DNA from: Jiella avicenniae
Lineage (GTDB): Bacteria > Pseudomonadota > Alphaproteobacteria > Rhizobiales > Rhizobiaceae
DNA length: 64,000 nucleotides
Assembly: GCF_021390325.1 (NCBI RefSeq)
Contig: NZ_JAJUWU010000015.1
Span: 1 to 64,000 of the forward strand
Direction of reading: 5' to 3'
The notes below the pieces were generated by a model. The model was not told the origin of the DNA. It did not search any database and worked only from the letters and a program-made list of their open reading frames with translations. This document shows positions 56,506 to 58,714 of the stretch, in pieces. The translations under genes were made by a program, and so were the position numbers. The stretch's first letter is position 1, and each line of letters opens with the position of its first letter.

Positions 56506-56580
<75 letters not shown>

Positions 56581-56637
56581 TCCCATCCGTTTGAAATCGC
56601 TGGAACCCTTGCGCGCAGGGCCTTCCGCCCATAGTGA

Positions 56638-56656
56638 TGTTACAAATCATGTAACA
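56638..56656. promoter_or_regulatory. Inverted repeat before the integrase remnant
   Basis: TGTTAC-N7-GTAACA lies between attL and the integrase start codon. A related TGTAACAAA string recurs near the right end (about 58377). Such sites are typical of integrase arm-type or excisionase binding and integrase autoregulation. Confidence 0.45.
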
Positions 56657-56671
56657 AAACGGCGGGCGACG

Positions 56672-56742
56672 ATGGCAGGGCGCATCAAGGGGCTGATAGA
56701 TCGCAACGGCGATTCTACGTCAGGATCGTGATTCCGGCCGAC
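56672..56742 (+). pseudogene. Frameshifted 5' stub of a tyrosine integrase
   Basis: ATG at 56672 gives MAGRIKGLIDRNG, and after a one-base frame change at about 56711 the frame continues FYVRIVIPAD. Together they resemble the N-terminus of tRNA-targeting tyrosine integrases of alphaproteobacteria (family assigned from memory). Unshifted, the frame hits TGA at 56729-56731. Beyond 56742 the similarity is lost. Position, directly after attL and pointing away from the tRNA, is where the integrase gene belongs. Confidence 0.6.
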
Positions 56743-56800
56743 GGCCAGACTCCGCACGGCGCGGCTTTCTGCATGCTGTCGAACCCCTCGATAGGGCGGC

Positions 56801-57010
56801 ATGATGGCAAACGAGATCGAGGTTACGATTGGCGGGGCGACATATCTCGGTGAATACACCGTAAGCGGACGCGGCAAGTCCGCTGTGGTCACCGTGAAGG
56901 GCAACGGCCTTACCACGACAAAATCGACTCAGCTTGGCGAACTGCCTGCCGAACAGGTTGCGCAGCTGATGCTCGCGGAAATGGTTCGCGCTATTAAGGC
57001 CACAAAGTAG
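56801..57010 (+). CDS. Island protein, 69 aa, unknown
   Basis: MMANEIEVTIGGATYLGEYTVSGRGKSAVVTVKGNG then a helical end AEQVAQLMLAEMVRAIKATK. Predicted beta-rich N-terminal half and a C-terminal helix; no membrane segment. GGGCGGC lies just before two consecutive ATGs. GC content is nearer the host than the right half of the island. No family recognised. Confidence 0.6.
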   Translation: MMANEIEVTIGGATYLGEYTVSGRGKSAVVTVKGNGLTTTKSTQLGELPAEQVAQLMLAEMVRAIKATK

Positions 57011-57070
57011 ACTTGCCCAAACGAATGACGAGCGAGGGCTGGCATGCGCCGGCCCTTTTTCGTTTCGACC

Positions 57071-57205
57071 TCAGCCGAGCGAGCGGGCTACATCATAGAT
57101 TTGCGCGATGTCCGCAACCACGCCAACGGCGAAGGCGATGGAGATCACCGTCGAGGCCATCATCGAATATAGCGATTTGCGTGAGTGCTTCCGCTTCTGT
57201 GCCAT
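57071..57205 (-). CDS. Island small membrane protein, 44 aa
   Basis: A 44-codon gene on the minus strand: MAQKRKHSRKSLYSMMAS, hydrophobic STVISIAFAVGVVADIA, then QIYDVARSLG. A strong ribosome site, AAGGAG with eight bases to the ATG, supports translation. Basic N-terminus and one transmembrane helix suggest an inner-membrane peptide with the N-terminus inside. The 24-bp palindrome lies 62 bp upstream. Similar architectures occur in phage lysis or exclusion peptides and type I toxins, but no such identity is shown. Confidence 0.6.
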   Translation of the reverse strand: MAQKRKHSRKSLYSMMASTVISIAFAVGVVADIAQIYDVARSLG

Positions 57206-57722
57206 CTGACAGACTCCTTCATTAAGTTGATGAAGAAGGTTTCAGAAGGGAGCTTTGGAGGAATGGCAGCTTGCCAAGCGCTTGGCAAGCTAGGTGGACC
57301 ACAACAAAAGCCATTCGTTTGCATATGGACTTGCTGAAAGTCCGACAAGTTGTTGTTTCTTATGGGGATTCTACCTCGACGCCATTAACGAAATGCCCGA
57401 CGTGTGGATTAGGTTGTGGCTGTCTCTAACAACTTGCACAAAGTCATCGCATCGCGCAGCCAATTGCACCTGTTCCCGATTTGTTCAATGTGTAGTTCGA
57501 GGGCTGCGAAGATATCATCGATGCAGACCCCTTCCACCGATCGATGGCGGTCAAAACACCCGCTGGACATACAACGGGTCCGCCTATTGCCTCGCTGCTG
57601 AGATATCGGACGACATAGGCGCTAGTGAGATCCCCAATGGCCTAGAACGCAATTGACACCTGTCATAAGCTTGCGGAGCTGTAAGCGCCCCCGGCGCCCG
57701 AAGTCTCGCTTCAGAGTTGGCT
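57206..57722. other. Non-coding island segment
   Basis: About 515 AT-richer bases. A 120-codon plus-strand frame (57294-57656) is rich in Cys, Ser and Arg without protein-like pattern and lacks a ribosome site, so I do not call it. Contains the palindrome below. Confidence 0.4.
57268..57291. promoter_or_regulatory. 24-bp perfect palindrome
   Basis: AGCTTGCCAAGC followed immediately by its reverse complement GCTTGGCAAGCT, with no spacer. It sits upstream of the 44-aa gene and could be an operator, a resolution or nicking site, or the stem of a hairpin. No T tract follows on either strand, which argues against a simple terminator. Confidence 0.6.
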
Positions 57723-58301
57723 ATGCTCGAATTTTACGAAGACATAAATGCAATCCTAAAGAACTCTCCCATACTAACAATCCTTATCGGTGCTTTATTG
57801 CCGATTACCATTGCGTTGATCTACAAGATAATCGTTAAATCGCCATCAATATATATTGGATCGTATTTTATGAGGAAGTCCATAATCAGGGATATAAATT
57901 GTTACAATCGGATATTACGCCACAACGATTATGGACCGATGTTAGCTGAATGTATGTCTCTCTCGTTAAGAGCTGTTTTGAGCATATCTTGGTCATTGTC
58001 GTTATTATTGATTTTTGTTCTCTCGGAGAATTATTTCATTAAAATGATTTTTCTTGGACTATACCTAGGTTTTGCGTTCGATCAATTTTCTGATTCACGA
58101 CGAGCGTTCAATGCACTCGACTTTGTTACTCATCCGGGCCGGGAAGTGCGTAGTTTGCAGCAGCGTGCAGAACGTTTGTCCAAGGCTAGCAACCGTCAAT
58201 GGGCGCTGATCGAAACCGAAGTGAACAATTTTCTGAAAAGAGCTGAAGAGCGGTTTCGCGCGAACTCCCCTACACCTACACCTACGTCTAGTCCGTCCTA
58301 G
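57723..58301 (+). CDS. Island membrane protein, 192 aa, unknown
   Basis: ATG 57723 (a TTG two codons earlier is possible). One hydrophobic helix near residues 16-38 (ILTILIGALLPITIALIYKII) and a double helix near 82-122 (SISWSLSLLLIFVLS, MIFLGLYLGFAFDQF) flank a loop with RKSIIRDINCYNRILRHND. The C-terminal ~70 residues are a charged helix (EVRSLQQRAERLSKAS, FLKRAEERFR), ending in a PTPTPTSSPS tail. Codon use is clearly AT-richer than host genes, indicating transfer. A membrane-anchored effector of a defence or exclusion function is one possibility (inference). Confidence 0.72.
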   Translation: MLEFYEDINAILKNSPILTILIGALLPITIALIYKIIVKSPSIYIGSYFMRKSIIRDINCYNRILRHNDYGPMLAECMSLSLRAVLSISWSLSLLLIFVLSENYFIKMIFLGLYLGFAFDQFSDSRRAFNALDFVTHPGREVRSLQQRAERLSKASNRQWALIETEVNNFLKRAEERFRANSPTPTPTSSPS

Positions 58302-58714
58302 AGCAGATGACCGACCTGGGCGCGTGTCACACCCCCCCTCTAACTTATGCACAGGCTGAGGCGCCCATTTTTGAGGTTGTAACAAAGCCCACTAGACTCA
58401 CCTATCTAATTGAATTTATTGATTAATGAGCGAATTCAATCCTCTCTCACAGCACCATTTTCCCCGAAACGACATCGAGACGTGGCCGCATCCGGTGGGC
58501 CGGTCCGCGCGATGCGATCGGGAGGGGGCCGTCGCTCGGGGCGTTCCGGCCTCCCGCAGGTTCTCACCGGCGAGCGCGCCCCGTCGACGAGCGCCGGGCC
58601 GGCAGGCTCGTCACGACTTGATCCGTCCCCGGCAAAGGCTATGAGTCGTCGCGAAGCCGGTCGGGCAGGCGACACCCGCCGATCCGGCCCCAACGCTCGA
58701 TCCGGGAGCCTTCG
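58302..58714. other. Right end of the island and original downstream sequence
   Basis: 58302-58435 is the AT-rich right end of the island without a gene; 58460-58714 returns to high GC and has no supportable gene before the glutathione transferase. Confidence 0.4.
58436..58459 (+). other. Attachment site attR (duplicate of tRNA-Thr 3' end)
   Basis: Exact 24-bp copy of 56558-56581, here without any tRNA body upstream. Marks the right boundary of the element. Confidence 0.85.

Follow-up and report, generated by a model that had tools for sequence, protein, structure and literature searches.

The 1.9 kb insert at the 3' end of the tRNA-Thr(GGT) gene of Jiella avicenniae is best explained, with a probability of about 86 %, as an internal-deletion derivative of a compact (~17-18 kb) temperate phage. 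Integration at the tRNA is demonstrated by the geometry of the locus and by empty sites in congeners, and a probable origin from the compact phage type is strongly supported by comparison with related elements in the same genome and in other members of the family.

Geometry and Composition of the Insert

The insert lies within a stretch of 64,000 nucleotides, the whole of which is referred to here as the window. An exact 24-bp core, made up of the final 23 bases of tRNA-Thr(GGT) and one further base, recurs downstream of the tRNA, with the copies 1,877 bp apart and 1,853 bp lying between them; on the left side, the match extends to 26 of 27 positions with one mismatch. This pair is the sole exact direct repeat of at least 18 bp in the 64-kb window whose copies lie no more than 3 kb from each other. 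The enclosed DNA has a G+C content of 50.4 % as compared to 65.6 % for the window, and among 622 same-sized segments (step 100) one was as low (50.35 %), which presumably overlaps the insert itself. Within the insert, the segment 57717-58301 has a G+C content of 41.4 %. The preliminary description had recognized both the exact 24-bp repeat and the deviating composition, which hold up, as does its inventory of three small genes (69 aa and 194 aa on the forward strand, 44 aa on the reverse strand), a palindrome and only a stub of the integrase; its right end at 58459 is one base beyond the 58458 found here. The features are as follows.

56506..56580, forward strand: tRNA-Thr (GGT) gene, integration target (ARAGORN)
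56558..56581, forward strand: left 24-bp core copy (attL side, within the tRNA 3' end)
56637-56645, forward strand: putative left arm-type site ATGTTACAA
56649-56657, forward strand: putative left arm-type site ATGTAACAA
56672..56731, forward strand: stub of a tyrosine-integrase gene (5' end), with a frameshift after codon 13
56801..57010, forward strand: 69-aa protein P0002, no assigned function (ORF list)
57036..57061, forward strand: terminator-like G+C-rich hairpin and T run, 3' of P0002 (read from the sequence)
57071..57205, reverse strand: 44-aa small hydrophobic protein (ORF list)
57268..57291, no strand: perfect 24-bp palindrome
57471..57623, forward strand: 5' portion of a broken gene encoding an 83-aa CxxC..CxxC (zinc-ribbon-like) protein
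57717..58301, forward strand: 194-aa orphan membrane-protein gene P0003, ATG at 57723, inside the broken gene
58332..58434, forward strand: right end of the element, comprising the 3' portion of the broken gene and the attR flank
58377..58385, forward strand: putative right arm-type site TTGTAACAA
58435..58458, forward strand: right 24-bp core copy (attR)

Empty Sites in Congeners

Such an insert at tRNA-Thr(GGT) was found in none of nine congeners, six of which were assessed with both flanks on one contig and three for a second repeat copy and phage genes only. The downstream neighbour, a GST-family gene, is present in all nine (Pfam). In L021, L022, L026, L027, and L029, 133-267 bp separate the tRNA from this gene, with a gene that we take to be leuD upstream, and in L023 a single chromosomal-looking gene occupies a gap of 1,104 bp. 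The search for the repeat, which tolerated up to 3 mismatches, misses the diverged tRNA of L027, L029, and L084 (0 matches), so that only the short gap speaks for an empty site in L027 and L029. In G002, G007, and G008, the GST gene is located elsewhere and the tRNA adjoins leuD; no match to the sister integrase (see below), portal, capsid, terminase, or tape measure was detected in the 7-9.5 kb past the tRNA that were covered, a range that a distant right end could escape. In the loci of these three genomes, a second repeat copy was absent from L082 and L083 and, allowing up to 4 mismatches, from L084.

The empty site that had been proposed as a check was thus found, and relatives all carrying the same 1.9 kb without empty sites, the observation named beforehand as speaking against an insertion, were not encountered. 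Together with the exact core repeat and the integrase stub, these sites bear out the earlier reading of a tyrosine-integrase insertion with att duplication. That the repeat is a chance or ancestral one and that no insertion occurred has a practically negligible probability: no point in its favour was found, and it is contradicted by the uniqueness of the repeat noted above, by the empty sites, and by the match of both ends to those of a prophage in the same genome.

A Sister Prophage at tRNA-Thr(TGT)

A DNA search of the own genome located the left end of the insert once more at C3:183141, beside tRNA-Thr(TGT). A 527-aa integrase with Phage_integrase and DUF6538 domains starts 95 bp after this tRNA; it reads as complete and carries GAR, HGWRH, GHA, and ENY, the catalytic-type motifs expected of a tyrosine integrase. 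Between it and the end of C3 lie portal, capsid, and tail-tube genes (Pfam). A second contig, C30, encodes a terminase nuclease domain, a VanY-containing tape measure, and small genes, after which an exact 24-bp copy of the tRNA-Thr(TGT) 3' end appears. Paired by this repeat, the two contigs, which do not overlap, are taken as the probable two ends of one prophage. Their broken ends both resemble transposase genes when inspected by eye. The core repeat occupies the same tRNA positions in the insert and in the sister prophage, and the cores of tRNA-Thr(GGT) and tRNA-Thr(TGT) differ at several positions.

The likeness extends to short motifs beside the cores. In the insert, ATGTTACAA and ATGTAACAA begin 55 and 67 bp after the core, as compared to 56 and 68 bp in the sister prophage; TTGTAACAA begins 58 bp ahead of the right core in either element. 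From these positions, we infer that the 9-mers may represent arm-type integrase sites. The motif TGTWACA occurs four times in the window, three times at the putative arm sites and once within the 194-aa ORF; shuffled sequence yielded a mean of 0.38 and a maximum of 2, and 0 of 100 shuffles reached four, a contrast that is somewhat overstated because the insert is more A+T-rich than the window. Variants of the 9-mers are present in related left ends of two further genomes (G068 and G201) and in the right end of G201. In G285, whose integrase has a different N-terminus, no such 9-mers were found and CTACCAA-like repeats are seen instead (by eye).

Gene Content and Mosaic Homology

The first 13 residues of the integrase stub are those of the sister integrase, whereupon a one-base deletion shifts the frame, and homology ends near 56741. 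P0002 has no Pfam match; the only other copy found resides in the same genome, in a remnant at tRNA-Gln (86 % amino acid identity over 63 residues; dN 0.047 and dS 0.147 over 59 codons). A stretch resembling the terminator-like hairpin behind it is also present in L062 and L063. The 44-aa protein probably spans the membrane once and shares 77 % identity over 43 residues with a protein encoded by the right end of a tRNA-Gln prophage of congener G009. With dN of 0.21 against a saturated dS of 2.4 (dN/dS about 0.09), selection has acted on its gene in the phage lineages.

The two right-end pieces that flank the 194-aa ORF are two parts of the 83-aa gene, which is intact on C30 (L010 6894-7145); the gap between these parts is 708 bp in the window as compared to 112 bp on C30. 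Residues 21-85 of the 194-aa protein gave a PADLOC match to KwaA (E 0.008, 14.4 bits) that is so weak that this identity is not claimed. Its PHROG match is at chance level (E 0.078), its NCBIfam match has an E value of 0.1, and a single-sequence AlphaFold2 model is all-helical with low confidence (mean pLDDT 61.8, pTM 0.33). Altogether, searches against Pfam, PHROG (E up to 0.1), and NCBIfam assigned the cargo to no family above cut-off, no structural phage gene is present among the ORFs of the insert, and no conjugation gene was seen when its ORF list was read by eye.

Several sources contribute to the insert. Positions 56512-56741 match the left end of the sister prophage (83 % over 235 bp), and two segments match its right end, namely 57471-57623 (C30, 72 %) and 58332-58459 (L010 7134-7261, 71 %). 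The segments 56762-56981, 57275-57307, and 57510-57623 correspond to the tRNA-Gln remnant on C3 with 94, 91, and 76 % identity, respectively, and 57035-57223 resembles the right end of the tRNA-Gln prophage in G009 (74 %). Because the identity to the sister prophage is lower at the right end (71-72 %) than at the left end (83-88 %), and because 56762-56981 best matches the tRNA-Gln remnant, the insert is considered a mosaic that does not have the sister prophage as its direct parent. Integration modules and right-end genes seem to have been swapped between phages of the two tRNA sites.

The tRNA-Gln remnant itself (L008 7278-8179, near 27.3-28.2 kb on C3) is decayed and comprises the 69-aa gene and a frameshifted copy of the 83-aa gene; it is adjoined by an apparently truncated gene that we take to be an IS256-type transposase. 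The 94 % match breaks at the same GCATGC in both (window 56762, L008 8179), upstream of which the DNA differs. The prophage in G009 (L062 3035-9650 on its C6) has terminase and tape measure genes and ends at tRNA-Gln, has a putative arm motif resembling CTGCTACA (by eye) that differs from that of the insert, and carries the same small gene near its end.

Compact Proviruses as the Probable Parent Type

At 1e-60, the integrase has 24 matches in 23 of 199 family genomes. Among the 13 of these 24 loci that were scanned for tRNAs, seven are at tRNA-Thr(GGT), one (the sister prophage) is at tRNA-Thr(TGT), and the other five are not at a tRNA-Thr (three at tRNA-Val, two at none). Complete elements between repeat copies were recovered from G201 (17,243 bp; L067/L070, C2:188987-206252) and G285 (18,135 bp; L085), both with the gene order integrase, portal, capsid, terminase, and tape measure, and five IMG/VR contigs of 15.1-18.7 kb (L073-L077) show portal, capsid, terminase, and tape measure genes in the same order. 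This type of compact 15-19 kb provirus is the probable parent type of the insert. The recurrent layout of ~15-19 kb, in which portal comes immediately after the integrase and is succeeded by capsid, connectors, terminase right ahead of the tape measure, and small genes as far as attR, is seen in G201, G285, L073-L077, and the own genome (L009/L010). Among the part of the G201 ORFs that was scanned, no replication, repressor, or tail-fibre gene was recognized. In viral_contigs, the patterns used yielded no relative of the integrase; genome_contigs gave one (a Defluviimonas MAG, 45 %), and phage records gave six, all below 60 % identity.

Beside attR, G201 carries a pair of HEPN_MAE_28990 and GmrSD_N genes (L070 7090-8788), a place that is likely a spot for accessory or defence cargo, and G285 carries there an ORF without significant family. 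The comparable place of the 194-aa ORF near attR suggests that it, too, may be an accessory gene.

Across the family, the pattern TTCAATCCTCTCNNNCAGCACCA has matches in 130 of 297 genomes, and among the matches listed there are 14 same-contig, same-strand neighbour intervals below 65 kb in 13 genomes, from which it follows that the tRNA is a frequent integration site. At 1.88 kb, the insert is the shortest of these 14 intervals among the matches listed, the other 13 spanning 9.5-61.8 kb, and this outlying small size fits a deletion product, as expected. The range of 9.5 to 62 kb among the listed pairs also indicates that several kinds of elements use this tRNA, and could therefore speak for a remnant of an ICE, IME, or genomic island rather than of a compact phage, as could L068 (G088), an element at tRNA-Thr(GGT) with a related integrase (48 %) and no phage structural match in 18 kb. 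Since the portal match of L066 (G136) is, moreover, only partial and followed by other genes, not every element with a related integrase is of the compact type, and another decayed copy is likely. An ICE, IME, or island origin of the insert is nonetheless very unlikely, as its right-end pieces have their matches on contigs that carry phage structural genes (L010 and L062) and the insert has no visible conjugation gene.

Formation, Mobility, and Recurrence

Origin from a compact phage would involve the following steps. A temperate phage, belonging to a compact kind that is common in the family, would have integrated into the 3' end of tRNA-Thr(GGT) by its tyrosine integrase, the established mechanism for such integrases, duplicating 24 bp and leaving the tRNA intact. 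Later, the main body would have been lost, and with it the bulk of the integrase gene and, presumably, the genes for head, packaging, and tail; we infer this deletion from its end product, no intermediate having been seen. The left ~180 bp, a few small genes, and the right end would have been kept, and low-G+C DNA with the 194-aa membrane-protein gene may have entered the small gene near attR either before or after the deletion.

Because its own integrase is missing, the insert cannot move by itself. With the att core and putative arm sites intact, it is possible that an integrase of the sister type could excise it in trans. Beyond this, the insert might be a non-autonomous mini-element that is still moving, excised and reintegrated in trans by the sister integrase like a MITE or a minimal satellite. 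The core and arm sites at nearly the same positions as in a prophage with a complete-reading integrase, and a TGTWACA count in the window above all 100 shuffles, fit this scenario, which is nevertheless improbable: there is no second copy of the whole mini-element in the own genome or the nine congeners (10 genus genomes), the cargo proteins occur in one of 151 family genomes each, one internal gene is broken, the differences between the cores would make exchange between the two tRNA-Thr sites imperfect, and nothing is visible that could package or replicate the insert. A live 1.9-kb mini-element without integrase, composed of two complete att ends and an accessory membrane gene, that is excised by the sister integrase and could spread with the phage type by parasitizing its recombination machinery is judged slightly less probable still.

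The preliminary description had left a choice between a dead remnant and a minimal satellite of a compact undescribed type, and had proposed to look for the same cargo elsewhere. No relative of the 194-aa protein was found in 150 other family genomes, genome_contigs, viral_contigs, phages, or plasmids; the 69-aa protein, for which the family genomes and one further set were searched, was confined to the own genome among 151 family genomes and had no match in the further set; the search with the 44-aa protein covered families and the loci compared here. As neither the 69-aa and 194-aa proteins nor the whole insert recur outside the own genome in the sets searched, a satellite family was rejected and the minimal satellite has no positive support. 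The remnant, in contrast, is borne out by both ends, which match both sister ends, and by an interior that consists partly of phage right-end pieces with one gene broken. Instead of an undescribed element type, the insert thus appears to be an ordinary, well-preserved prophage fossil.

Comparison with Known Systems

A narrow literature search found no report on the insert or on the layout of the compact proviruses, which is not evidence of absence. That layout may be of interest to researchers who study phages, satellites, or gene transfer agents. Phage satellites (PICI, cf-PICI, P4-like) are small, located at tRNAs, and may depend on the enzymes of another element, all of which applies or could apply to the insert. 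It differs from them in that it has no integrase of its own beyond the stub, no recognized packaging, capsid-altering, or regulatory gene, cargo that is without family except for weak matches, and no recurrence.

With the compact 15-19 kb proviruses (G201, G285, and the five from IMG/VR), the insert shares the site, the type of integrase, and the att geometry, but neither the integrase nor any structural gene is left in it. Cryptic prophages that retain intact attL and attR resemble it in the tRNA site, the core duplication, the integrase stub, and the pieces of phage ends; compared to these, the insert is unusually short, and both of its ends and the putative arm sites are well kept. It shows what characterizes a prophage remnant, namely a duplicated tRNA 3' end, ends like those of a sister prophage, an inactive integrase, no structural genes, and empty sites in relatives. 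Similar to a CIME (cis-mobilizable element), it has retained attL and attR and lost integration and transfer genes; the definition of CIMEs, however, refers to decayed ICEs and IMEs, which move together with a tandem neighbour element, whereas the parent type here is phage-like and no tandem partner is present at the tRNA. On the best reading, the insert is by nature a prophage remnant that functions as the prophage equivalent of a CIME.

Summed up, a single genome displays what the decay of a compact prophage leaves behind, with attachment ends that outlast the rest, and the coexisting sister prophage encodes an integrase that could act on these ends. If excision in trans does occur, the insert would represent the equivalent of a CIME or MITE, but derived from a phage.
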